DNA of 11,605 nucleotides, from positions 1-11,605 of the forward strand of contig JAFDIC010000077.1 in the NCBI GenBank assembly GCA_019308525.1. The letters run 5' to 3'. The notes under the pieces were generated by a model. The model was not told the DNA's origin, did no database searches, and saw only the letters and a program-made list of their open reading frames with translations. A program made the translations under genes and the position numbers. Positions 1,377 to 10,327 of this stretch are shown one piece after another (positions within the stretch are counted from its first letter, which is position 1; each line of letters opens with the position of its first letter). The stretch comes from Deltaproteobacteria bacterium. GTDB taxonomy: Bacteria > Desulfobacterota > DSM-4660 > Desulfatiglandales > HGW-15.

Positions 1377-3083
1377 ATGAAAGTTAAGTTTAGTGGAGAC
1401 ACGGTGGCCCACGCATTGCTGGAATTGCTTTCCCTCAGGGGCATAGAATACTTCTTTGCCAATGCAGGGACGGATTTTGCAAGCATTGTAGAGGCCTTTG
1501 CCCTGAGAGAGAAGCAGGGGAAGGGATACCCCGTACCATTCGCCGTGCCCCACGAGATACCCCTGGTTGGTATGGCCCACGGGTACTACCTGGGAACAGG
1601 AAGACCTCAGGCGGCAATGGTACATGTGACAGTGGGAACCGCCAACAGCATCGGGGGGCTGATGGCTGCGAACAGGGCCAGGATACCCATCCTGTTTTTC
1701 GCAGGAAGGACCCCCATAACCGAGGATGGGGATCGTGCATCAAGACAGGCCCAGATCCACTGGGGCCAGGAATCCTTTGACCAGGGTGGGATGGTCAGGG
1801 AATTTGTAAAATGGGAATATGAGCTGAGGGAGCCTTCGCAACTGGAGACGGTGATTGATCGGGCTGTCACCATGGCCATGACACAACCCCGGGGACCCGT
1901 GTACCTATCCCTTCCGAGGGAGGTCACGGCTGCTCCACTGGGCGAGATTGAGCTGAGAACAGAGGGCCGCTTCGATCTCCCCACCTTCCACCCCGACCCG
2001 GCAAAGATCAAGGAGGCTGCACGGTTGCTGCTAAAGGCACGGTTTCCCCTGATCATTACCTCCGCGATCGGCCAGGACCCTTCAGCCGTGCAGACTCTCG
2101 TAGACGTTGCAGAAGCGGGGGCCGTAGGGGTCGTATCATTCAAACCCGGTTACGTGAATTTTCCTGGAGATCATCCCTGTCACCTGGGGTTTTCCCCGGC
2201 TCCCTATTTCGAGGAGACGGACGTCATCTTCGTGGTTGACTGCGATGTCCCATGGTTTCCCCGGCATTTCAAGCCCATGGATTCTGCGGTGGTCATCCAG
2301 GCAGGCGTTGATCCCTTTTACAGCAACTACCCTATCAGGGGATTTCATTCGGACCTGACCCTGCAAGGAGATCCTGCTTTGGTCCTCTCTGAAATTGCCA
2401 GGGAACTGGCAGGAGATCCTGAAAGGGATGAGGATGCTTTGGCCAGGAGGCAGAAAAAGCTTCAAGGCATTCACGATGGTATTGCCCGGAAACTCACGGG
2501 ATTTCCCAGGGGCTCGGACCGGGAAAGCCCCCTGGATTTTGGTTGGATTTCCCACAATCTTGCCCGATTCACGGGAGATGATACCATAGTCGTCAATGAG
2601 TATGGGAACGCCATGGAGGAAAGGCTGGACTACCCTCCGGGGGGTTATTTCGGCCCGACCCACGCAGGATACCTGGGCTGGAGCTTCGGGACGGCCCTTG
2701 GCCTCAAACTGGCTCAGCCTGAAAAGACCGTCATTTTGACGGTGGGTGACGGCGCATACATGTTCTCGGTCCCAAGCGCCTGTCATTTTGTATCAAATGC
2801 AAACCGTTTGCCCCTGCTCGTAGTGGTATACAACAACCGACGGTGGAATGCCGTAAAAAGGGCCACCCTTGGGGTTCATCCCGAGGGAGTCGCCTCCCGG
2901 TCCCAGAAATTTCCCCTCAGCTCACTCGAACCCACGGGAGACTATGAGAAGATCTGTGAGGCCTTTGGGGGGTACGGCGAAAAGGTGGAGGATCCCGGCC
3001 AGGTGCTACCTGCCCTTGAAAGGGCGTTTCATGCCGTTCGGGTGGAGAAACGCCAGGCCCTCCTCAATATCATATGCAAGTGA
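1377..3083 (+). CDS. Thiamine diphosphate-dependent enzyme, acetolactate synthase-like; substrate unknown
   Basis: 568-residue protein with the three-domain plan of the acetolactate synthase/benzoylformate decarboxylase superfamily. The N-terminal PYR domain carries the likely catalytic glutamate, Glu60, in VPHEIPLVGMAHGY. The middle domain lies around residues 190-340. The C-terminal PP domain has the GDG...NN cofactor motif: Gly457-Asp458-Gly459, 26 residues, then Asn486-Asn487, binding ThDP and Mg2+. The protein is probably cytosolic and acts on a 2-oxoacid by decarboxylation or carboligation. The N-terminal NAGTDFASIVEAF stretch differs from classical acetolactate synthases (which have a GGxxxPxxDAL-type stretch), and no ilvN regulatory subunit follows, so a branched-chain amino-acid role is unlikely. 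Start ATG lies 3 nt after the TRAP stop, with purine-rich sequence just upstream, so translation may be coupled. The stop TGA (3081-3083) sits inside a seven-base repeat unit. The family assignment is secure; the reaction is not. Confidence 0.9.
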   Translation: MKVKFSGDTVAHALLELLSLRGIEYFFANAGTDFASIVEAFALREKQGKGYPVPFAVPHEIPLVGMAHGYYLGTGRPQAAMVHVTVGTANSIGGLMAANRARIPILFFAGRTPITEDGDRASRQAQIHWGQESFDQGGMVREFVKWEYELREPSQLETVIDRAVTMAMTQPRGPVYLSLPREVTAAPLGEIELRTEGRFDLPTFHPDPAKIKEAARLLLKARFPLIITSAIGQDPSAVQTLVDVAEAGAVGVVSFKPGYVNFPGDHPCHLGFSPAPYFEETDVIFVVDCDVPWFPRHFKPMDSAVVIQAGVDPFYSNYPIRGFHSDLTLQGDPALVLSEIARELAGDPERDEDALARRQKKLQGIHDGIARKLTGFPRGSDRESPLDFGWISHNLARFTGDDTIVVNEYGNAMEERLDYPPGGYFGPTHAGYLGWSFGTALGLKLAQPEKTVILTVGDGAYMFSVPSACHFVSNANRLPLLVVVYNNRRWNAVKRATLGVHPEGVASRSQKFPLSSLEPTGDYEKICEAFGGYGEKVEDPGQVLPALERAFHAVRVEKRQALLNIICK

Positions 3084-3229
3084 CGAGTGAGGGACGACCG
3101 ACGACGGACGACCGACGACCGCCGACGGACGACGCGCTGAATTTTGAATTTTGAATCCTGAATTTTGAACCCTGAACCTCGAACTTTGAATCCTGCCGAA
3201 GGCAGGCTCCTTGAACCTGGAACCTTGAA
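3079..3229. repeat. Heptameric repeat array, two unit families in one register, with an inserted hairpin
   Basis: The whole gap between the TPP gene and radA is a seven-base periodic array. It opens with AGTGACG and AGTGAGG (3079-3092), followed by six GACGACC-type units (3093-3134) and eight NNNTGAA-type units such as TTTTGAA and CTTTGAA (3135-3190; one of them reads CCTCGAA). An 18-nt hairpin follows (3191-3208), then three more units (CCTTGAA, CCTGGAA, CCTTGAA; 3209-3229). The phase is unbroken from 3079 to 3190 even though the unit sequence changes twice. No promoter or intrinsic terminator is visible. Confidence 0.9.
3191..3208 (+). repeat. 18-nt hairpin unit, copy 1
   Basis: TCCTGCCGAAGGCAGGCT: CCTGCC pairs perfectly with GGCAGG across a 3-nt loop (GAA). 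It lies exactly between two TTGAA-type heptads. The same unit, differing only in the loop, recurs at 4618-4635 (inverted) and 10270-10287. No T-run follows, so a terminator role is not supported. Confidence 0.85.
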
Positions 3230-3238
3230 TTTTTTCTC

Positions 3239-4594
3239 ATGAAAAAGAGTTCAAAATTGATGTATGTATGCCAGGGCTGCGGGTACCAGGCCCCTAAGTG
3301 GCTTGGCAGATGCCCTGATTGCGGGCAGTGGAACAGCCTTGTGGAAGAGCCGGTTGAGCCCTTGGGAAAGAGCGGTACTCCATCAGCAATGGGTAAGCCC
3401 TTGCGGGTCAAGGAGATATCCCTGGACCCCGAACTGAGAATAAGAAGCGGAATTGCAGAGTTCGACAGGACCCTCGGTGGGGGCATAGTCCCGGGTTCGA
3501 TGGTTCTCGTGGGAGGGGACCCGGGAATTGGAAAATCAACGCTCGTGCTTCAGGTTGCCGCCTTGCTGGCAAGAAAAGGGGTCAGGGCCCTGTATCTTTC
3601 AGGAGAGGAGTCGGCGCAGCAGATAAAGATGAGGGCTCAGAGGTTGGGCGTAAATCCTGATAACCTCTTCATACTAAACGGGACATGTGTGGAGGAACTT
3701 TTGCGGCTCCTGGAAGACCTCGCCCTTGGCTTGCTGGTGGTGGACTCGGTGCAGACCGTGTACACGGAGGGCATACCCTCTGCGCCCGGGAGCGTAGGGC
3801 AGGTGAGGGAAGTCTGCACGAGGCTGCTGAACTGGTCCAAGAGCACTGGCGTCCCCACCCTCCTGATAGGACACGTCACCAAGGAGGGGTCGATCGCTGG
3901 CCCAAAGGCCCTTGAGCACTTGGTGGATACCGTCCTCTACCTGGAAGGGGATGCGGCGCATGCCTTCCGCATACTGCGTTCCGTAAAAAACAGGTTTGGC
4001 GCCACGAACGAGATCGGGGTCTTTGAAATGAAGGACAGGGGCCTGGAGGAAGTGGGAAACCCTTCCCGCATATTCCTTGAGGAGAGGCCTGAGGGTGCGG
4101 CAGGCTCCGCTGTTATCCCTTGCATCGAAGGCACCCGTCCCCTGCTGGTGGAAGTCCAGGCACTCGTAGGACCGAGTCCCCTGGGAATGCCCCGGAGAAC
4201 GGCCATTGGAGTTGATCACAATCGCATCTCCATGCTGGTCGCTGTCCTGGCAAAGAGGATGGGTATGGAAATGGGAGACCAGGACATCTTCGTTAACGTG
4301 GCAGGGGGCTTGAGAGTCTCTGAGCCGGCAGCCGATCTTGGCATTGTCTGCGCCATGGTTTCCAGTTTCCTGGACAAGCCCTTGGACGACAACCTGGTGG
4401 TCTTCGGAGAAATCGGCCTGGCCGGGGAGGTCAGGGGAGTAAACCAGCCGGAAATGAGGCTGAGGGAGGCCCAAAAGCTGGGCTTTTCACGCTGCCTCCT
4501 TTCCAGGCGGAACATGGAGGGTGCATGTGGCTTCGGAGACATGGACTTGGTGGGGGTAGAGTCTGTCAGGGGCCTCCTGGACGTCCTTTATTGA
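3239..4594 (+). CDS. radA: DNA repair protein RadA (Sms)
   Basis: 451 residues, the normal length for RadA, a cytosolic RecA-like ATPase that drives branch migration of recombination intermediates together with RecA. Domains in order: an N-terminal C4 zinc finger (Cys11, Cys14, Cys25, Cys28); a RecA-type ATPase core with Walker A GGDPGIGKST at 92-101 (Lys99) and a hydrophobic Walker B strand LGLLVVDSVQT; the RadA signature KNRFG at 250-254; and a C-terminal Lon-protease-like domain from about residue 290 (VEVQALVGPSPLGMPRRTAIG and following). Start ATG 3239 follows the repeat array by 9 nt with no clear Shine-Dalgarno sequence. ATG at 3260 (residue 8) is a possible alternative and would keep the zinc finger. 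No gene-specific promoter is recognised, so transcription may come from upstream or from within the repeat DNA. Heptads resume 9 nt after the stop. Confidence 0.97.
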   Translation: MKKSSKLMYVCQGCGYQAPKWLGRCPDCGQWNSLVEEPVEPLGKSGTPSAMGKPLRVKEISLDPELRIRSGIAEFDRTLGGGIVPGSMVLVGGDPGIGKSTLVLQVAALLARKGVRALYLSGEESAQQIKMRAQRLGVNPDNLFILNGTCVEELLRLLEDLALGLLVVDSVQTVYTEGIPSAPGSVGQVREVCTRLLNWSKSTGVPTLLIGHVTKEGSIAGPKALEHLVDTVLYLEGDAAHAFRILRSVKNRFGATNEIGVFEMKDRGLEEVGNPSRIFLEERPEGAAGSAVIPCIEGTRPLLVEVQALVGPSPLGMPRRTAIGVDHNRISMLVAVLAKRMGMEMGDQDIFVNVAGGLRVSEPAADLGIVCAMVSSFLDKPLDDNLVVFGEIGLAGEVRGVNQPEMRLREAQKLGFSRCLLSRRNMEGACGFGDMDLVGVESVRGLLDVLY

Positions 4595-4603
4595 GCAGAA
4601 GAG

Positions 4604-4663
4604 TTCAAAGTTCAAGGAGCCTGCCTCCGGCAGGATTCAAGGTTCAAAGTTCAAAGTTCAAAA
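4604..4663 (-). repeat. TTGAA-type heptads with inverted 18-nt hairpin (4618-4635)
   Basis: In the minus orientation the units read CTTTGAA and CCTTGAA. Two units (4604-4617) are followed by an 18-nt hairpin at 4618-4635 (minus-strand TCCTGCCGGAGGCAGGCT) and four more heptads (4636-4663). This is the same arrangement as at 3184-3229, inverted. The space 4595-5243 (649 bp) holds no gene; it is all repeat mosaic. Confidence 0.88.
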
Positions 4664-4834
4664 TCTCGGGAAGATACGAGTCACGAGTTACAAGTGACAA
4701 GGTGCAAGTGACTGTTACTTTTCCATTCCACGGTCATTGGTCGGCTGTCGGCGGTCATCGGTCGTCGGTCGGCGGTCGTTCTGCTCTTATCTCTCGCCTC
4801 TGACCTCAAGCCTCCAACCTGCAACAATTCCTTT

Positions 4835-4862
4835 GATCGCAACAACATGTTGCTCCTACAGG
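4835..4862 (-). repeat. REP-like hairpin, subfamily A, copy 1
   Basis: On the minus strand: CCTGTAGGA, then a 15-nt hairpin GCAACA-TGT-TGTTGC (6-bp stem, 3-nt loop), then GATC. The GTAG head followed by a short palindrome and a GCGAT tail resembles the architecture of Pseudomonas-type REP sequences (head GTRG plus hairpin). It is identical to 10083-10110 and differs by one base from 5059-5086. Confidence 0.72.
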
Positions 4863-4900
4863 GGAGGTTCAAAGTTCAAGGTTCAAGGTTCCAAGGCATA

Positions 4901-4929
4901 GAATCGTGGCAAGATGCCACTCCTAGAGG
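4901..4929 (-). repeat. REP-like hairpin, subfamily B, copy 1
   Basis: On the minus strand: CCTCTAGGA, then a 15-nt hairpin GTGGCA-TCT-TGCCAC, then GATTC. It has the same 6-3-6 geometry and TAGGA head as subfamily A but a different stem. A relative at 8018-8046 has a changed stem that still pairs. Confidence 0.68.
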
Positions 4930-4930
4930 A

Positions 4931-5146
4931 AGTCACGAGTTACAAGTGACAAGTTGCAAGTGACTGTTGCTTTTCCATTCCAAGGTCATCGGTCGGCGGT
5001 CGTTCTGCTCTTATCTCTCGCCTCTGACCTCAAGCCTCCAACCTGCAACAATTCCTTTGATCGCAACAACATGTTGCTTCTACAGGGGAGGTTCAAAGTT
5101 CAAGGTTCAAGGTTCCAAGGCATAGAATCGTGGCAAGATCCCACTC
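4931..5146 (-). repeat. Composite long repeat, copy 2 (tandem with copy 1)
   Basis: Near-identical to 4679-4924 in the same order. The offset between copies is 252 bp up to the GTCNNNG array and 224 bp after it, because this copy has three GTCNNNG heptads (4985-5005) where copy 1 has seven. It contains REP-like A copy 2 (5059-5086, one substitution, GTAGAAG in place of GTAGGAG) and a degenerate REP-like B (about 5125-5146). Confidence 0.9.
5059..5086 (-). repeat. REP-like hairpin, subfamily A, copy 2
   Basis: Same 28-nt unit as 4835-4862, with the stem GCAACA/TGTTGC intact and one substitution in the head (GTAGAAG). Confidence 0.68.
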
Positions 5147-5166
5147 GCATGTCCTTTCTGTCCTCT

Positions 5167-5241
5167 GTCGGCGGTCATTGGTCGGCCGTCATCGGTCGTC
5201 GGTCGTCTTTCCGGCTGCTTACTGCTTACTGCTCACTTTGT
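5167..5241. repeat. GTCNNNG and ACTGCTT heptad arrays next to the nitroreductase stop
   Basis: Six GTCNNNG-type units (GTCGGCG, GTCATTG and so on, 5167-5208) are followed after 5 nt by GCTGCTT, ACTGCTT, ACTGCTC and a degenerate unit (5214-5241). The nitroreductase stop codon begins 2 nt further on, at 5244. The ACTGCTT/ACTGCTC units read on the minus strand match the GTAAGCA/GTGAGCA units flanking the trxB stop. Confidence 0.82.
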
Positions 5242-5243
5242 TC

Positions 5244-5894
5244 TCACTCCCTCCACCGGACAACTTCGCCGAGAGGTGCCCTTTGCGAAATAGATCTGTT
5301 CACCGGGGCCCCGGTATCCCTGTATCCCACGGCAACACCTATTACGACCTTCTTCTCTTCCGGGATGTTCAGGAACTCCTTGATTTCATCTTCAAAGGCA
5401 GTAATCAGACCGATGGGACAGGTCCCCAGTCCCAGCCCGTGGGCGGCTAGAACCAGGTAGCCTAAAAGGACACCCATATCGGTCAAGCGAGCAGAGGAAA
5501 ACACTTCATCTATTGTCAAAATGATTCCTGTTGGCGCCCCGTAGAAGTTGCAGCTTCCTTCATTGATGAACTCCTGGAAATCCGGAGTTTCCGACAGATT
5601 AGGAGCTATACATTCCAGAAGCTCTCTTTGTCGCCTCATGAAATGCTCCGGCAGTGGCCTGGATGCACCAGGCCCACAGGAAATATTCCTCTCCCTCATC
5701 CTCTTTACCAGGATTCTGCTGAGCCTTTTGCGTTCTTCCCCGGACACAACGTATATCTCCCAGGGCTGAATGTTTATGGCAGATGGTGCCTGGGTGGCCA
5801 GTGAGAGCAAATCTTCCAGGACACTCCTCTCCAAGGGCCTGTCCAGAAATGCCCTCGTGCTTCTCCTTGTCTTAATCGCCTCTAGAATATCCAT
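5244..5894 (-). CDS. Nitroreductase family protein (FMN-dependent oxidoreductase)
   Basis: 216 residues, a typical size for the family. These cytosolic homodimeric flavoproteins bind FMN and reduce nitro groups, quinones or other acceptors with NAD(P)H. Visible marks are the N-terminal IKTRRSTRAF (Arg10, Arg11, Ser12, Arg14, the FMN phosphate-binding pattern), APSAINIQPWEIYVV at about 37-51, the GLGLGTCPIGL segment that follows a hydrophobic helix, and the C-terminal QRAPLGEVV. Start ATG at 5894 is chosen over the longer frame (to 6014) because a strong Shine-Dalgarno GGAGG lies at 5905-5909, the family's N-terminus begins here, and the promoter -35 box overlaps the longer start. The stretch with several cysteines and prolines around residues 70-85 is somewhat unusual, but no CxxC cluster for an Fe-S centre is present, so a plain flavoprotein is favoured. 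The physiological substrate is unknown. It is the only complete minus-strand gene in the window, with its own promoter. Confidence 0.93.
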   Translation of the reverse strand: MDILEAIKTRRSTRAFLDRPLERSVLEDLLSLATQAPSAINIQPWEIYVVSGEERKRLSRILVKRMRERNISCGPGASRPLPEHFMRRQRELLECIAPNLSETPDFQEFINEGSCNFYGAPTGIILTIDEVFSSARLTDMGVLLGYLVLAAHGLGLGTCPIGLITAFEDEIKEFLNIPEEKKVVIGVAVGYRDTGAPVNRSISQRAPLGEVVRWRE

Positions 5895-5917
5895 AATACG
5901 CCCCCCTCCAATTCTGC

Positions 5918-5931
5918 GGCACTTCCGTGCC
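5918..5931 (-). other. Small hairpin in the nitroreductase 5' leader
   Basis: On the minus strand GGCAC-GGAA-GTGCC: a 5-bp stem with a GNRA-type loop, 8 nt upstream of the GGAGG ribosome-binding site. It could modulate initiation; no known riboswitch is recognised. Confidence 0.4.
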
Positions 5932-5985
5932 CGGATTGTCACAAAACACGCCTGGTTCCTTGGAGGCTCCAGGACTGTCCCAAGT

Positions 5986-6014
5986 CTTATAACCCAATGG
6001 GGGTATTTCGTCAA
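5986..6014 (-). promoter_or_regulatory. Sigma70-like promoter of the nitroreductase gene
   Basis: On the minus strand, -35 TTGACG (6009-6014), a 17-nt spacer and -10 TATAAG (5986-5991). Both boxes match the consensus at five of six positions with ideal spacing. Transcription would begin near 5979, giving a leader of about 85 nt before ATG 5894. Confidence 0.65.
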
Positions 6015-6089
6015 ATTTGATGCCTCCCTGGGAATCCCGCTTCAACAGCAGTGGTGGGAGCGGGTATTGGGGGAAGCACATATGTCCTG

Positions 6090-6312
6090 TTGAGGATAGG
6101 GCCCTAATTGTGATAGTCTCGGCAGGAGGTCTTATCTGGCGTTCAAGGATTGTCGCCGGGCCTATGCACGTGCATGAAAGGCTTTGAAAATCTTGGCAGT
6201 TTCATCAAGTCTTGGAGTGAGGCAAGCATCTTGCCGTCCTCAAAGAAGGTTTTGCGAAGGTCCCAATAGGATGAAGGAAGGCAGGGGGCGGCTGAGGAAA
6301 GGAGATACGGGG
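6090..6312 (+). promoter_or_regulatory. Upstream region of the beta-CASP gene: weak promoter candidate, palindrome, hairpin
   Basis: The space 5895-6312 has no gene. On the plus strand TTGAGG (6090-6095) and GATAGT (6112-6117), separated by 16 nt with an upstream TG, form a weak extended -10 promoter candidate. ATGCACGTGCAT (6164-6175) is a perfect 12-bp palindrome that could be an operator. GGCAAG-CAT-CTTGCC (6221-6235) is a perfect 6-3-6 hairpin with the same geometry as the REP-like units. A Shine-Dalgarno AAAGGAG lies at 6298-6304. Unlike the other spaces it carries no heptad array. Confidence 0.35.
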
Positions 6313-7947
6313 ATGATCAAGATTACCTGTTTGGGCGGAGTCGGTTCTGTGACCGGGTCGTGCTATCTTGTGGAGAGCCCCCAGGGCAAGAAAGTCCTGG
6401 TGGATTGCGGGCTTTTTCAGGGAGGGAGGCAGTCTGAGGCGAGAAACAGGGAGGATTGGGGTTTTGACCCCGCAGCAATCCAATCCCTGTTCCTTACCCA
6501 CGCCCACATAGACCACAGCGGGAGGATCCCCAAACTGGTCAAGGATGGTTTCAGGGGAAAGATCCTGACTTCCCCTCCCACCGCAGAACTTTGCGAGATT
6601 ATGCTCCTCGACTCCGCCCATATCCAGGAAATGGATGCCGAGTGGCAGACGAGGAAAAACAGGCGTTCCGCCAGGGAGGAGGTCGAACCCCTATACACTA
6701 CCAAGGACGCGGAAGAAAGCTTGAGGCTCCTAGCACCTCTGGAGAGAGACCGCGTTATCCAGATAGAACCCGGAGTCAGGGCAAGGTTGAGGAATGCGGG
6801 ACACATCCTCGGTAGTTCCATACTGGAGCTATGGATAGAGGGAAACAAAGAGTCAACAAAGGTGGTGTTTTCAGGCGACCTGGGCAAGAAGCACCAGCTC
6901 ATTGTCCGGGATCCCCAAGAGATTTTTGACGCGGACTATCTCTTCCTGGAATCCACTTACGGCGACCGCCTTCACAGGTCCTTCCAAGAGAGCAAAGAGG
7001 AATTGCTGGAGGCAATTGAACATGCCTATTCCCACAATGAAAAGATAATTGTCCCCGCCTTTGCAGTTGAGAGGACACAGGAAATCCTCTATGTCCTTGG
7101 GGAGTTTCATCGAAATGGCTCCCTCCCCGACATACCGGTCTACCTGGATAGCCCCCTCGCCATAAAGGCCACTGAAATCTTCCGGAAGAACAAGAAATGC
7201 TATGATAAGGAGGCAATGGAGATAGTCAATGAGGGCCATGATCCCTTCGATATGCCCAATCTCGTCTTTACGGAATCCACCAGGGCATCCATGGCCATCA
7301 ATGAGCTGGAGGGATCGGCCATAGTGATAGCAGGAAACGGCATGTGCACGGCGGGGCGCATCAAGCACCACCTCAAACACAATCTCTGGCGCCAGGGGGC
7401 CAGTATAGTAATCATTGGTTTCCAGGCCCAAGGGAGCACGGGACGGAAGATCGTGGACGGGGCAAGTCACGTCAGGATCTTCGGTGAGAACGTGGCAGTG
7501 AAGGCAAAGGTCTTTACCATAGGCGGTTTCTCAGCCCATGCGGACCAGAAGGGCCTGCTTGAATGGGTAAGCAATTTCGAGAGCAAGCCCAAGGTATTCG
7601 TGGTGCACGGAGAGCCTAAGGCCAGCGAGGCCCTTGCCAGGAAGATCCGTGGGGCATTTGGGCTGGAGGTGTATGTTCCCAGGTGGAAAGAGAGGCTTAT
7701 CCTCAAGCCCCGAGAGATCGCCTTTGAACCGCCGGGAGAAAAAGAACCAGAGGAAGACATTCATCTCCTTATGCTCAACCGGATTATTGATCTTGAAAGG
7801 GAGGTCAAAGCGCTCAAGGGGAGCATAAAGAGGGGGCGGGGAGGGAAGAGAATCTCAGAGGATGAGCTGGACAGGCTGGCATATATCAGGGAAGAGATAA
7901 GGGATATTCTCTCCATTGTCAACAAACCCACGACGGATGACCGATGA
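6313..7947 (+). CDS. MBL-fold beta-CASP RNase/exonuclease-like protein (YSH1/CPSF73-like)
   Basis: 544 residues. Metallo-beta-lactamase fold with a beta-CASP insertion and an RNA-specificity C-terminal block, the family of CPSF73-like nucleases acting on RNA in the cytosol. Metal ligands are all present: His63-x-His65-x-Asp67-His68, His164 in NAGHILGSS, Asp189 in FSGDLG, His409 in GGFSAHADQ and His432 in VVHGEP. FLESTYGDR and PAFAVERTQEIL mark the beta-CASP part. An intact two-zinc active site predicts catalytic activity. After the usual end near residue 460 there is an extension of about 80 residues, charged and heptad-like (LNRIIDLEREVKALKG; DELDRLAYIREEIRDIL), a probable coiled coil for oligomerisation. 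Start 6313 is preferred over 6184 because of AAAGGAG 8 nt upstream and because MIKITCLGGVGSVTGS is the family N-terminus. The final codons (TTDDR) and the stop TGA are encoded by a repeat array. Confidence 0.94.
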   Translation: MIKITCLGGVGSVTGSCYLVESPQGKKVLVDCGLFQGGRQSEARNREDWGFDPAAIQSLFLTHAHIDHSGRIPKLVKDGFRGKILTSPPTAELCEIMLLDSAHIQEMDAEWQTRKNRRSAREEVEPLYTTKDAEESLRLLAPLERDRVIQIEPGVRARLRNAGHILGSSILELWIEGNKESTKVVFSGDLGKKHQLIVRDPQEIFDADYLFLESTYGDRLHRSFQESKEELLEAIEHAYSHNEKIIVPAFAVERTQEILYVLGEFHRNGSLPDIPVYLDSPLAIKATEIFRKNKKCYDKEAMEIVNEGHDPFDMPNLVFTESTRASMAINELEGSAIVIAGNGMCTAGRIKHHLKHNLWRQGASIVIIGFQAQGSTGRKIVDGASHVRIFGENVAVKAKVFTIGGFSAHADQKGLLEWVSNFESKPKVFVVHGEPKASEALARKIRGAFGLEVYVPRWKERLILKPREIAFEPPGEKEPEEDIHLLMLNRIIDLEREVKALKGSIKRGRGGKRISEDELDRLAYIREEIRDILSIVNKPTTDDR

Positions 7948-8046
7948 CCGCCGACCGATGACGGCCGAATGGAAAAGTAACAGTCACTTGCAACTTGTCA
8001 CTTGTAACTCGTGACTTCCTCTAGGAGCGGTGTCTTGCCGCGACCC
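7931..8046 (+). repeat. Composite repeat, inverted partial copy (heptads plus REP-like B)
   Basis: Six units of CGACGGA/TGACCGA type (7931-7972) begin inside the beta-CASP coding frame. They are followed by six AGTCACT/TGTAACT-type heptads (7975-8016) and a REP-like B unit (8018-8046). This is the reverse complement of the first and last parts of 4679-4930, with the central part missing. Confidence 0.88.
8018..8046 (+). repeat. REP-like hairpin, subfamily B, copy 2
   Basis: CCTCTAGGA, a 15-nt hairpin GCGGTG-TCT-TGCCGC with two G-T wobble pairs, then GACCC. Against 4901-4929 the second stem pair changes from T-A to C-G on both sides, a compensatory change that keeps the hairpin. Confidence 0.65.
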
Positions 8047-8111
8047 GGATATCTCTGGGAGACAGGGATTTCCTGGCACGGATTACACGGGTTACACAGA
8101 TGATGTAAGTC

Positions 8112-8143
8112 TTTTTTCAATCAAGGCCTCTTGATTGAAAAAA
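8112..8143. repeat. AT-rich 14-bp inverted repeat
   Basis: TTTTTTCAATCAAG (8112-8125) pairs perfectly with CTTGATTGAAAAAA (8130-8143) around a 4-nt loop. The T-run opens the left arm and the A-run closes the right, the reverse of an intrinsic terminator, so it is called only as an inverted repeat. Confidence 0.85.
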
Positions 8144-8251
8144 CCTCTTTCCGCCTCCGGCGGGAAAAGAAGGGGCAATGCAAGTCGCCTGCAAAAGGGG
8201 AGGTGGCAAGAACCGGAGGTTCCTTCCAGCCCGTGATGGTGCCAGATGGCT

Positions 8252-8285
8252 TCTATGGTGATTCGGGTGCCCGAATCACCATAGA
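8252..8285. repeat. 34-bp near-perfect palindrome, 16-bp arms
   Basis: TCTATGGTGATTCGGG (8252-8267) is the exact reverse complement of CCCGAATCACCATAGA (8270-8285), separated by only 2 nt (TG). It could form a cruciform or long hairpin. It lies inside the 8066-8320 element. Confidence 0.9.
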
Positions 8286-8443
8286 CACAGACCGGATTAT
8301 CCGTGTAATCCGCGAAATCCGCCTGTCGGAGCAAAGTGCAGATCCCGGTAGCGGGGCCACGTTGAACCGGGTCCCTTTAGGGTGTTCTACCGGGGTGCCA
8401 AGAAAGAAGTGACGAGAGACAAGTCACCTGGAAGACCTATGCA

Positions 8444-8643
8444 ACCAATAGTACCAATCAGACAAGTAGAACCAATGAAGCAAGTAGATAGACCGAACCT
8501 TGAACTTTGAACCTTGAACCTTGAACCTTGAACTTTGAACCTTGAACCTTGAACTTTGAACCTTGAACCTTGAATCTAAATGTCGTCCGCGGCGGCTGAC
8601 CAATCAAACCAATGTAACGAGTTAGACCAGTAAAAGAAACCAG
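8444..8643 (+). repeat. Nine-base ACCAATNNN array flanking an 11-unit CYTTGAA heptad array
   Basis: Six nine-base units (ACCAATAGT, ACCAATCAG, ACAAGTAGA and so on) span 8444-8497. Exactly eleven heptads (CCTTGAA or CTTTGAA) follow at 8498-8574 without interruption. After 24 nt of other sequence (8575-8598, containing CCGCGG) the nine-base units resume (ACCAATCAA, ACCAATGTA, ACGAGTTAG, ACCAGTAAA, 8599-8643). The array ends about 30 nt before the trxA promoter candidate. Confidence 0.88.
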
Positions 8644-8674
8644 AAGACTGGATAGGCTTCCATGGCTTTGTGTG

Positions 8675-8701
8675 TTGACAAAGGGGGTGCCCCGTGCTAA
8701 T
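8675..8701 (+). promoter_or_regulatory. Candidate promoter for trxA-trxB
   Basis: A perfect -35 TTGACA at 8675-8680. The best -10 is GCTAAT at 8696-8701 (four of six) with a short 15-nt spacer; at 17 nt the hexamer is poor. A small GGGGG-TG-CCCC inverted repeat lies in the spacer. Placement is plausible, strength uncertain. Confidence 0.4.
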
Positions 8702-8738
8702 TGAACAATCAAGAATATATGTTGAGAAAGGAGGAGTC

Positions 8739-9062
8739 ATGGGTAATTTGCTCCAAGTAACCGATGAAAACTTCGACCAGGAGATTATTGATTCAGATCT
8801 CCCTGCCATGGTGGATTTTTGGGCCGAGTGGTGCGGCCCCTGTAGGATGGTTGGCCCCGTGGTGGAAGAACTGGCAAATGAATATGCCGGGAAAATCAAA
8901 TTCGCAAAGATGGACGTAGACAAGAACAAGCAGACCCCGGCAAGGTTCGGTATAAGAAATATCCCGACCCTGATCTTTTTCAAGAACGGCGAGGTTGCCA
9001 ACACCATAATAGGTGCCCACCCCAAGAGCTCCATCGAGCAGGAGCTGAAGAAGTTACTCTGA
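8739..9062 (+). CDS. trxA: Thioredoxin
   Basis: 107 residues, a standard one-domain cytosolic thioredoxin that reduces protein disulfides and is recycled by thioredoxin reductase, encoded directly downstream. The active site is Trp31-Cys32-Gly33-Pro34-Cys35, with buried Asp26 and cis-Pro76 (RNIPTL); these positions coincide with the E. coli numbering as I recall it. Start ATG 8739 is chosen because AAAGGAGG ends 4 nt upstream and MGNLLQVTDENF begins the fold. The in-frame start at 8694 would add 15 unusual residues and overlap the promoter candidate. Its stop TGA shares one base with the trxB ATG, so the two are probably translationally coupled. The function is secure. Confidence 0.97.
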   Translation: MGNLLQVTDENFDQEIIDSDLPAMVDFWAEWCGPCRMVGPVVEELANEYAGKIKFAKMDVDKNKQTPARFGIRNIPTLIFFKNGEVANTIIGAHPKSSIEQELKKLL

Positions 9063-9979
9063 TGCTGGACTTGATCGTCATAGGCGGAGGTCCCGCGGGG
9101 CTCACTGCGGGTTTGTACGGGGCGAGGGCCAGGATGAACTTAGTGCTCCTGGAAAGATTGGCCCCAGGGGGTCAGGTCATGAATACCAACTGGGTGGAAA
9201 ATTACCCAGGGTTCCCTGACGGGATATCCGGATTTGATCTTGTGGACAGGATGAAGACACAGGCAGAAAAGTTCGGCCTTGAGATCAGGAGCGAAGAGGT
9301 GGTCAGCCTCGAGATGGGGCCTGCTGAAAAGGTCGTCACAACTCCCGAGCGGAAAATCAAGACCAGGACGGTCATCCTTGCTACTGGAGCCACCTGGAGA
9401 AAGCTGGGTATAGAGGGAGAAGATCTCTTGACAGGGAAAGGGGTGTCTTACTGCGCCACCTGCGACGGGCCTTTTTTCAAGGACATGGAGGTCGCTGTGA
9501 TCGGCGGAGGAGATACGGCCATTGAAGAGTCCCTGTTTCTGACACGCTTCGCCAAGAAGATCCACGTAATACATAGAAGGGACAAACTGAGGGCCACCAA
9601 GCTGCTCCAGGAACGGGCAATGGCCGAGGAGAAAATTTGCTTTGTCTGGGATAGTATTCCCATAAGGATCCTGGGCGATAAGGGGGTGGAGGGTGTGGAG
9701 ACAAAAAACCTCAAGACCGGTAAGGTAACCCGAATGCCTGTGCAGGGGATCTTTATCTTCATAGGCACAACACCCAACACGGAACTGGTGAAAGATCAAT
9801 TGAGTCTGGACCAGGCTGGATTTATCATTACCAACGAAAACATGGAGACATCCGTGCCGGGCGTCTTTGCGGCGGGAGATGTCAGATCCAAGATGTTTAG
9901 GCAGATCGCCACGGCAGTGGGAGAAGGGGCCGCAGCGGCCCATGCGGCCGAGAAATTCGTAGAGGATAGGGGAAGTTAG
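9062..9979 (+). CDS. trxB: Thioredoxin reductase
   Basis: 305 residues, a low-molecular-weight (bacterial type) thioredoxin-disulfide reductase. It passes electrons from NADPH through FAD and a redox disulfide to thioredoxin. Seen in order: FAD-binding GGGPAG at 8-13; redox Cys131-Ala-Thr-Cys134 followed by DGPFF; a second dinucleotide-binding motif GGGDTA at 148-153; HRRDKLRATK after it, whose HRR fits an NADPH 2'-phosphate-binding role; and the C-terminal FAD motif GVFAAGDV with RQIATAVGEGA. ATG overlaps the trxA stop by one base. Some anaerobes use ferredoxin- or flavin-linked variants, but the intact HRR motif favours NADPH. The stop TAG (9977-9979) falls inside a heptad (GTTAGCG). Confidence 0.97.
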   Translation: MLDLIVIGGGPAGLTAGLYGARARMNLVLLERLAPGGQVMNTNWVENYPGFPDGISGFDLVDRMKTQAEKFGLEIRSEEVVSLEMGPAEKVVTTPERKIKTRTVILATGATWRKLGIEGEDLLTGKGVSYCATCDGPFFKDMEVAVIGGGDTAIEESLFLTRFAKKIHVIHRRDKLRATKLLQERAMAEEKICFVWDSIPIRILGDKGVEGVETKNLKTGKVTRMPVQGIFIFIGTTPNTELVKDQLSLDQAGFIITNENMETSVPGVFAAGDVRSKMFRQIATAVGEGAAAAHAAEKFVEDRGS

Positions 9980-10082
9980 CGGTAAGCAGTGAGCAGAAGG
10001 ACAGAGGACGGAAAGGACGCGGGATCGGGATCTTGCCGCGATTCCATGCCTTCGAACCCTGAACTTTGAACCCTGAATTTCC

Positions 10083-10110
10083 CCTGTAGGAGCAACATGT
10101 TGTTGCGATC
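10083..10110 (+). repeat. REP-like hairpin, subfamily A, copy 3
   Basis: Reads CCTGTAGGA, hairpin GCAACA-TGT-TGTTGC, GATC. All 28 positions are identical to the inverted copy at 4835-4862, more than 5 kb away. Confidence 0.72.
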
Positions 10111-10269
10111 CAAGGAATTGTTGGAGGCTGGAGACTTGAGGTCAGAGGCAAGAGATGAGAGCAAAACGACCGACGACCGACGACCGCCGACAGACGAGAG
10201 GACGCGGGATCGGGAGCTTGCCGCGATTCTATGCCTTTGAACTTTGAACCCTGAACTTTGAACCTTGAA

Positions 10270-10287
10270 TCCTGCCGCAGGCAGGCT
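10270..10287 (+). repeat. 18-nt hairpin unit, copy 3
   Basis: TCCTGCCGCAGGCAGGCT, differing from the copy at 3191-3208 only in one loop base. It follows directly after a CCTTGAA heptad, as at the other two sites. Confidence 0.85.
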
Positions 10288-10327
10288 CCTTTGATCCCCA
10301 ACCCTGGCGAACCAGACAACGCTGATC

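Follow-up and report, generated by a model that had tools for sequence, protein, structure and literature searches.

The window and its repeats

The window analysed here is an 11,605-nt stretch of contig JAFDIC010000077.1 from a Deltaproteobacteria bacterium (assembly GCA_019308525.1), in which tandem arrays with a seven-nucleotide unit (heptads) dominate most of the spaces between the genes. Nine genes are present. Pfam, run on eight of them, returned domains of a tripartite ATP-independent periplasmic (TRAP) transporter DctM subunit, a thiamine pyrophosphate (TPP) enzyme, a nitroreductase, a RadA-type ATPase, a beta-CASP metallo-hydrolase, a thioredoxin, a pyridine nucleotide-disulphide oxidoreductase and a YfiO (BamD-like) lipoprotein. 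The RadA-type gene, which starts at position 3239, is read as radA from its domains; the oxidoreductase is taken to be thioredoxin reductase, and the ninth gene, at the right edge, is presumably that of an alanyl-tRNA synthetase.

Pooled over the five non-coding spaces (2347 nt), identity at lag 7 is 0.386, with z = 14.3 against 100 dinucleotide-preserving shuffles; z is 10.7 at lag 14 and 8.3 at lag 21, and −0.6 and 1.1 at lags 6 and 8. The coding DNA of the window has no lag-7 excess (z = −2.5). The signal is strong in four of the five intergenic spaces and absent from the space 5895–6303 (z = −1.6). When lags 4–15 were scanned, arrays scoring at least 12 were found in the window at lags 7 and 14 alone. 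At least five unit families occur (YTTGAAC, GACGACC/GGTCNNC, AGTNACA, CTCNNNC and CTGCTTA), the CTCNNNC family being read from the sequence by eye, without detection by a repeat tool. An earlier note on this DNA had described intergenic spaces built from at least five period-7 families, and the pooled signal and the arrays placed by Tandem Repeats Finder (TRF) confirm it. The heptad arrays themselves form open reading frames.

Upstream of radA, a GACGACC array (reverse complement GGTCGTC) occupies 3093–3134 on the minus strand (TRF 3093–3133), and TGAAYYY/CYTTGAA arrays follow on the same strand at 3138–3229, just before the gene (TRF TGAATTT 3138–3169). The space beyond radA is the most composite. 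On the plus strand it holds a TTCAARG array at 4636–4662 (TRF unit TTCAAAG; GGTTCAA in the orientation of the 5′ arm of the pairs described below), and a 31-nt AGTNACA arm at 4679–4709 with the heptad-spaced anchors AGT AGT AGT AGG AGT, read from the sequence (TRF AGTGACA 4686–4712; array scan 4676–4701). Next come a GGTCNNC array at 4731–4779 (TRF GGTCGGC 4739–4778), six CTCNNNC heptads on the minus strand at 4784–4825, seen by eye, with a copy at 5008–5049 and a reverse copy at about 10120–10161, and a palindrome-containing stretch, GATCGCAACAACATGTTGCTCCTACA, at 4835–4860. This last probably resembles repetitive extragenic palindromic (REP) sequences and lies directly before a GGTTCAAR array, the plus-strand GTTCAAR array that TRF places at 4867–4895. 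A REP-like palindrome, TAGGAGTGGCATCTTGCCACGAT, is found on the minus strand at 4903–4925, and a similar one at 10 places of the relative G381. It is followed on the plus strand by a second 31-nt AGTNACA arm with five AGT anchors at 4931–4961 (TRF AAGTGAC 4930–4964), within a 93% copy of 4679–4750, by a second composite copy (98%) of GGTC array, CTCNNNC heptads, palindrome and GTTCAAR array at 4984–5146, and by a GGTCNNC array at 5167–5207 (TRF). The space closes with a minus-strand CTGCTTA array at 5215–5237 (TRF; reverse complement AGTRAGC).

The remaining heptad arrays are all on the minus strand. They are a GACCGAT/GACCGCC array at 7932–7968 (TRF GACCGAT 7932–7962), a reverse copy of the 31-nt AGTNACA arm with five ACT anchors at 7986–8016 (TRF ACTTGTA 7986–8017), a GAACYTT array of 11.4 units at 8495–8574 (TRF unit GAACCTT), and a GAACYYT array at 10235–10274 (TRF) upstream of the BamD/YfiO-like gene. 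Between these last two, 10000–10200 carries reverse copies of the composites 4745–4923 and 4984–5169, among them GAG-type heptads and an ACGACCG array at 10166–10197. The copies are therefore not independent: 4984–5169 is 87% complementary to 10000–10185, 4745–4923 is 86% complementary to 10022–10200, and 4760–4922 is 98% identical to 4984–5146. Likewise, the three AGTNACA arms, each with five anchors in 31 nt, are copies of each other; the other window arrays have lengths other than 31 nt.

Two arrays detected by TRF have a period of nine and are not heptads, CACGGATTA at 8077–8101 and ATCCGCGAA at 8299–8322. Period-9 families (CACGGATTA/ATCCGNGNA) thus share intergenic spaces with heptads, and further period-9 units, ACCAATNNN and GCTCCCAAC, were seen by eye beside heptads outside the window (L249 4190–4290; L252 3040–3070). 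A few period-8 arrays are present in the relative G378.

Comparison with the closest relative

The closest relative, G381, whose beta-CASP protein shows 80% identity, shares the gene neighbours of the window but carries them on two contigs. Its intergenic spaces draw on a similar pool, AGTNACA, CTGCTYA, GAGGCNN, TGAACYY and the REP-like palindrome, arranged in a different order. With respect to its TPP enzyme and nitroreductase neighbours, radA is inverted in G381 (window 3239–4594; L252 3085–4437), and repeat-rich spaces lie on both sides of the gene in both genomes. An inversion between repeat-rich spaces would fit recombination between inverted arrays. The TPP enzyme gene of G381 appears truncated or internally deleted beside repeats (L252 2039–2498).

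REP-like stretches ending CTCCTACA directly precede GGTTCAAR-type arrays in the window (4835–4895) and in G381 (L252 4780–4822), and for this reason the two kinds of repeat may travel together in this lineage.

Period 7 in relatives and other bacteria

Stretches of relatives that were not themselves selected for repeats, 1,187,108 nt together, contain 24 arrays at lag 7 at a score threshold of 14, compared with 10 at lag 14, the first multiple; lag 8 has 5, lag 9 has 4, and the others have 0–3 (0–2 each below lag 14). The lag-7 arrays come from G378 (8), G155 (7), G361 (5), stretches surrounding the beta-CASP gene in ten relatives (3), and G331 (1). None was found in the sets from G381 (139 kb), G364, G355 and G343. 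G381, G361, G378 and G364 had been picked for an array-pattern match. A further 200 kb come from G276, which was chosen for its many AKTCAGR matches; they hold 19 arrays at lag 7, none at lags 8, 9 and 10, one at lag 11 and five each at lags 6 and 12. Judged from these counts by lag and source, the lag-7 peak is real but uneven. The expectation that it would extend beyond the window is borne out in relatives, where seven is the commonest array period.

An exact 25-nt GAACYTT pattern occurs in at least 117 stretches of species-level genomes, mostly metagenome-assembled with few isolates. Among the matches listed are Pseudomonadota, Bacteroidota, Verrucomicrobiota, Acidobacteriota, Desulfobacterota-type genomes, Nitrospirota, Chlorobi, Chloroflexota, Armatimonadota, a planctomycete, Patescibacteria and a cyanobacterium, phyla being assigned from record titles and our own reading and the cyanobacterial material fetched being two contigs of one Hydrococcus metagenome-assembled genome. 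Two cultured species, Salegentibacter echinorum and Desulfothermus okinawensis, have the GAACYTT array. In viral contigs, GAACYTT was found in 63 stretches and CTGCTYA in 41, and both stand out, while AGTRACA (12) and GGTCRTC (6) are near the controls, two shuffles of GAACYTT (1 and 7). Across the 85 genomes of the order of the relatives, a TGAAC array was found in 23 (reversed control 2) and AGTNACR in 11 (reversed control 4, with high counts in G361 and G387); these reversed patterns are not neutral controls for heptads, in that the reverse of one family can resemble another. AKTCAGR was found in 50 of the 395 genomes of one phylum (reversed control 12). Unit families are many, 144 in one count. 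A search for modules common to several phyla was unsuccessful: no other word was prominent beside the searched array, and the order and the other phyla share 5 units with 2.3 expected.

Four draft contigs of G361 (C71, C738, C568 and C676) terminate inside heptad arrays. The repeats therefore seem to interrupt assembly, and their counts in metagenome-assembled genomes may be too low.

Paired arrays

Outside the window, in relatives as well as in unrelated bacteria, the arrays often stand as two inverted arms around a spacer. Adjacent arrays of the same family no more than 250 nt apart were counted there, with duplicates removed by their flanks. Over the seven families tested, inverted neighbours stood in the expected order in 155 cases and in the reverse order in 8, totals that may count some pairs twice, since families one mismatch apart can share an array. 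The polarity recurs in named genomes (29 vs 1), other genomes (26 vs 1) and viral contigs (100 vs 6), and in each family with pairs: GTTCAAR, with GTTCAA first (82 vs 2), AKTCAGR (17 vs 0), AGTRAGC (21 vs 0), AGTNACR (23 vs 5), AGTTNCC (11 vs 1) and RATGGGC (1 vs 0). For inverted neighbours 251–2000 nt apart the counts over six families are 32 vs 61. Stricter thresholds left a single polarity in every family with at least two pairs (12/12, and 3/3 in new loci). AKTCAGR, a rotation of the reverse complement of a heptamer consensus from Geobacter (class 3, discussed below), was absent from the pairs used earlier, and the prediction that AKTCAGR would come first was written before the scan. In 150 new loci, 16 of 16 near inverted pairs agree with it; far pairs divide 4 vs 3.

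Arm length has a mode at 31 nt, the length of 37 of 183 paired arrays, of 99 of 903 unpaired ones, and of 10 of 65 paired arrays in the new loci. An arm of this length holds five anchors seven apart, as in AGTGGTCAGTGGTCGGTGGTCAGTGGTCAGT and AGTTGTCAGTTCCCAGTTGCCAGTTGCCAGT. Among 83 paired GTTCAAR arms the first base is the R of RGTTCAA in 44 and the G in 16, and the last bases are ..GTT in 39; most of these loci were fetched by a GTTCAAR pattern, which may favour the starts, not the ..GTT ends. In 112 of 159 pairs the outer ends of the two arms agree in phase to within 1 nt, and the spacer measures 0–139 nt in 130 paired elements. AGTNACR arms in G387 and G388 enclose either about 250–300 nt or only 11–16 nt (L528, L529, L534); the short form looks like an internally deleted version of one element.

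The units themselves are biased. Across 32 families in 5′-arm orientation, AG is found in 28 and CT in 5, GT in 25 and AC in 7. The 150 new loci hold 16 families besides AKTCAGR, with AG 13 vs CT 3 and GT 11 vs AC 2; nine of these families have RGT only and one ACY only. The first description, of a period shared without a shared sequence, is right only in part: the families are indeed distinct, but they have this AG/GT bias in common.

The earlier note had further proposed that families adjoin in register, with the phase kept at 3079–3190 while the unit changes. Phase cannot be defined between two units with no sequence in common, and the test over many loci was negative, the in-register rotation being the best one in 25.9 of 180 adjacent array pairs with 25.7 expected. 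In this count, similar units that are in register merge into one array and escape; in the class unable to merge (similarity of 3 or less) 8.9 of 59 junctions were in register, with 8.4 expected. The case made there for a single cause over chance slippage accordingly keeps the shared period and gains the fixed polarity and preferred arm length, but loses the junctions.

A transposed form in one group of relatives

When one GTTCAAR-armed element was used as the query, 55 of the 85 genomes of the order gave matches, many of them to an arm only. Full or near-full copies (67–100% identity) of this dispersed element of about 205 nt are present in at least 12 genomes. Twenty aligned copies of what is here called the G364-type element have sharp ends, CCTAAAGTGAGC(GGTTCAA)n ... 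TTGAACCGCTTAACCTAGG, and a conserved internal stretch, and their unit number varies by whole heptads. The element ends in CCTA...TAGG and has 5-bp flanking repeats. A script detected exact flanking repeats of 5 nt in 9 of the 20 copies (2000 shuffles: mean 2.1, maximum 8); because L591/L594, L592/L593 and L606/L607 share flanks, this corresponds to 7 of 17 distinct sites. Copies L608 and L609, whose right ends the script misplaced, also have a 5-nt repeat by eye. In the order set, which includes the G364-type element, a 5-nt direct repeat is present in 14 of 23 pairs, with 4.3 expected. The flanking repeats in this clade show that those copies move.

The IS1380-type element ISEcp1 has the end CCTAGATTCTACGT and makes a 5-bp duplication. 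The CCTA...TAGG ends and 5-bp flanking repeats of the G364-type element resemble both this type of end and miniature inverted-repeat transposable elements (MITEs). Unlike these, most arms elsewhere have neither CCTA nor flanking repeats, and the window arrays would be single arms. An IS1380 transposase is not supported as the driver, as PF13701 (DDE_Tnp_1_4) has no match in eight hosts of full or near-full copies (G366, G367, G338, G357, G327, G382, G335 and G371). An IS1380-type transposase exceeds the cut-off in 8 of 20 genomes, and the 20 transposase loci contain no heptad array and one chance-like CCTA...GGTTCA match (L630). CCTA ends were also dropped as a general mark of arms, the counts being 11 of 180 near vs 0 far in the phylum set and 4 vs 4 of 237 in named genomes. 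In G276 some arms are preceded by CCTACGAA or CCTAAGGA (L781 16253–16347, L784 3683–3716, L788 19586–19607), which resemble the CCTA end of the G364-type element and are a possible terminal motif in the phylum of G276.

Relation to known repeats

Several established repeat classes come near the arrays. REP sequences and bacterial interspersed mosaic elements (BIMEs) are GTAG-tagged palindromes, and the short palindromic intergenic repeats beside the window heptads are like them; to our knowledge, period-7 direct-repeat arms are not part of a REP. The short tandemly repeated repetitive (STRR) sequences of heterocystous cyanobacteria are heptameric, with heptads CCCCAGT/TTCCCCA or relatives.

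Intergenic heptamer repeats are already known in other bacteria, as the accessible parts of three papers make plain (PMC2700814, PMC4679880, PMC4692102); with GAACYTT recurring in many phyla, the arrays are not special to a desulfobacterial genome. The nearest precedent is found in the ‘predicted global regulator binding sites’ of Geobacter metallireducens, classes 1–3, in which four octamers (class 1) or five heptamers (class 3) form opposite-strand pairs at variable distance (PMC2700814). The five-unit sites of class 3 match the 31-nt mode and the AGTNACA arms of the window, and the opposite-strand pairing matches the paired arrays outside it, as seen for GTTCAAR, AKTCAGR, AGTRAGC, AGTNACR and AGTTNCC; neither the window, within 250 nt, nor GGTCNNC in any fetched locus has such a pair. 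The Geobacter sites, in what was accessible of PMC2700814, concern one species and are read as IHF/HU sites, without a cross-phylum architecture, an arm-length rule or a link to a transposed element.

TAACTGA heptamers occur in Beggiatoaceae, cyanobacteria and Bacteroidetes; in one genome 169 direct sets stand beside a single indirect repeat (PMC4679880, accessible part). On these counts TAACTGA appears to lack a paired form. GGGAATC of Xanthomonas has some convergent inverted pairs and GGGGAYT of Nostoc few (PMC4692102, accessible part). Like the arrays here, the published heptamers are mostly intergenic, of period 7 and in some genomes mixed; in the accessible parts of PMC4679880 and PMC4692102 they are treated as single-sequence tandem repeats, with no polarity or arm-length rule, and the abundance of heptanucleotides is met only by a guess about slippage length. 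A polarity or arm-length rule was not found in titles and abstracts of a literature that omits most subscription papers and preprints, nor, by title, was any bacterial paper on six array unit strings in that same literature.

Interpretation and alternative explanations

The reading that best joins these observations is that the heptad arrays of the window and its relatives are arms of small non-coding elements, and that this is the shared cause of their period; we hold it tentatively, with prospects a little short of even. The paired form found in relatives and unrelated bacteria consists of a 5′ arm, a spacer and a 3′ arm, the arms being inverted repeats nearly always in the same order. Each arm most often comprises five direct 7-nt units (31 nt) with an anchor, mostly RGT, in fixed orientation, and a putative DNA-binding protein would read that anchor every 7 bp. 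Other positions of the unit may drift and be kept alike within one element by unit duplication, so that, on this proposal, many sequence families would arise with one period. In one group of relatives such arms form the subterminal repeats of an element that has transposed and is flanked by 5-bp repeats. The window arrays would be single arms of several families, copied, tandemly duplicated and recombined in intergenic DNA, and intermixed with REP-like palindromes and period-9 repeats; as the window lacks an inverted pair within 250 nt, their derivation from paired elements is something we infer.

A number of results weigh against this reading. Within 250 nt the window holds three same-direction neighbours but not one inverted pair from a single family, and elsewhere same-direction neighbours are common (70 over the seven families; 41 for GTTCAAR in another count). 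GGTCNNC has no inverted pair within 250 nt in any fetched locus, and few genomes of the order carry it (3 of 85, against 1 for the reversed control). Arrays well beyond 31 nt are numerous, and the anchor is not universal, with RGT in 57% and ACY in 8% of 49 families in 5′-arm orientation. The unselected 139-kb sample of the closest relative, G381, is free of lag-7 arrays at score 14. Because array patterns served to fetch most loci, the counts describe array-bearing loci, not random genomes. Flanking 5-mer repeats show no excess in named genomes (3 of 30, 5.4 expected) or viral contigs (22 of 104, 20.9 expected), so that transposition is shown for one clade only. No transposase could be tied to the arms by the IS1380-type domain search or by inspection of the 20 transposase loci.

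Replication slippage, the view attributed to an earlier survey (Mrazek 2007) in the accessible parts of PMC4679880 and PMC4692102, would make 7 nt a favoured slip length of the polymerase, with unrelated seeds expanding where selection is weak. That seven is the commonest period, that copies of one element differ by whole units, that unit families are so many and that neighbours often share a direction all speak for it, and self-complementary dinucleotides are scarcer in the units than in shuffled versions of them (1.30 vs 1.76), as slippage-prone strands would require. Slippage alone leaves the fixed polarity, the 31-nt mode, the phased arm ends, the AG/GT bias and the excess of two window units in viral contigs unpredicted. 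Simple sequence repeats born of slippage should have no preferred orientation or length, and loci outside the window show both; as the whole explanation it is unlikely, though it retains a real chance. Host architectural or regulatory sites, on which paired arrays would bind a nucleoid or global regulatory protein of the IHF/HU kind, are again an unlikely account, one proposed for the paired opposite-strand sites of Geobacter metallireducens, where class 3 has five tandem MTYCTGA and IHF/HU is suggested (PMC2700814, accessible part). A preferred arm length and anchors would suit a protein with multiple contacts, and flanking repeats would not be required. Where a single TGAAC array lies between convergent genes, it runs antisense to the nearer one in 25 of 36 cases (25 vs 11), a hint of non-random placement, unlike co-directional gaps, in which no bias with gene direction is seen (26 sense vs 28 antisense, and 20 vs 19). 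Against host sites, relatives differ in their families and, by the patterns used, many lack them, as the TGAAC and AGTNACR counts in the order show, and in one clade the flanking repeats show copies moving.

That the inverted arms pair in the transcript as RNA hairpins, terminators or stabilisers, would agree with their arrangement around a spacer of 0–139 nt, but unit variants are not mirrored between arms (identity 0.842 mirrored, 0.840 unit-shifted, p = 0.67), which speaks against a selected hairpin. A hairpin requires no fixed polarity, Rfam has no match in the window at the gathering threshold, and 19 paired GTTCAAR elements with callable neighbours lie in 12 co-directional, 5 divergent and 2 convergent gaps; the idea is very improbable. 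Equally remote is the idea that the arrays arise as a by-product of REP elements, which a Y1 transposase, the REP-associated tyrosine transposase (RAYT), would move. REP-like palindromes do adjoin heptad arrays in the window and in G381, and Y1_Tnp domains are found in 14 of 14 genomes searched, yet also in 5 of 14 controls. With up to two mismatches allowed, the REP-like palindrome of the window was found in one genome of 14, whereas heptad arrays range wider; across 297 genomes TTGAAC lies near TGTAGGAGC no more often than its reversed control does, so that REP–heptad adjacency was rejected as a general rule; and L266, the locus of one Y1 gene of G381, has no REP pattern match. Two smaller ideas were also set aside. 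Stop triplets, as an array of stop codons would need, are mildly enriched (0.81 vs 0.68 strands per family in shuffles), with no sense bias in co-directional gaps, and methyltransferase sites, suggested by odd palindromes such as GTNAC, gave a weak signal (z = 2.3).

Implications

A broader claim is possible but doubtful: that one class of non-coding element, with inverted arms of about five units, an RGT-type anchor and fixed polarity, extends through many phyla and many families and is a main cause of the heptanucleotide excess in bacteria, the TAACTGA type excepted. If it is true, a widespread DNA-binding or mobilising protein that contacts DNA every 7 bp would be implied. The polarity rule, the preferred arm length and the shared anchor turn the abundance of bacterial heptads into a testable question about one class of element and one protein. 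The same reading, if right, would help to explain the mosaics of intergenic repeats and some of the gene inversions in environmental bacteria, and would provide a rule by which such elements may be searched for in any genome.

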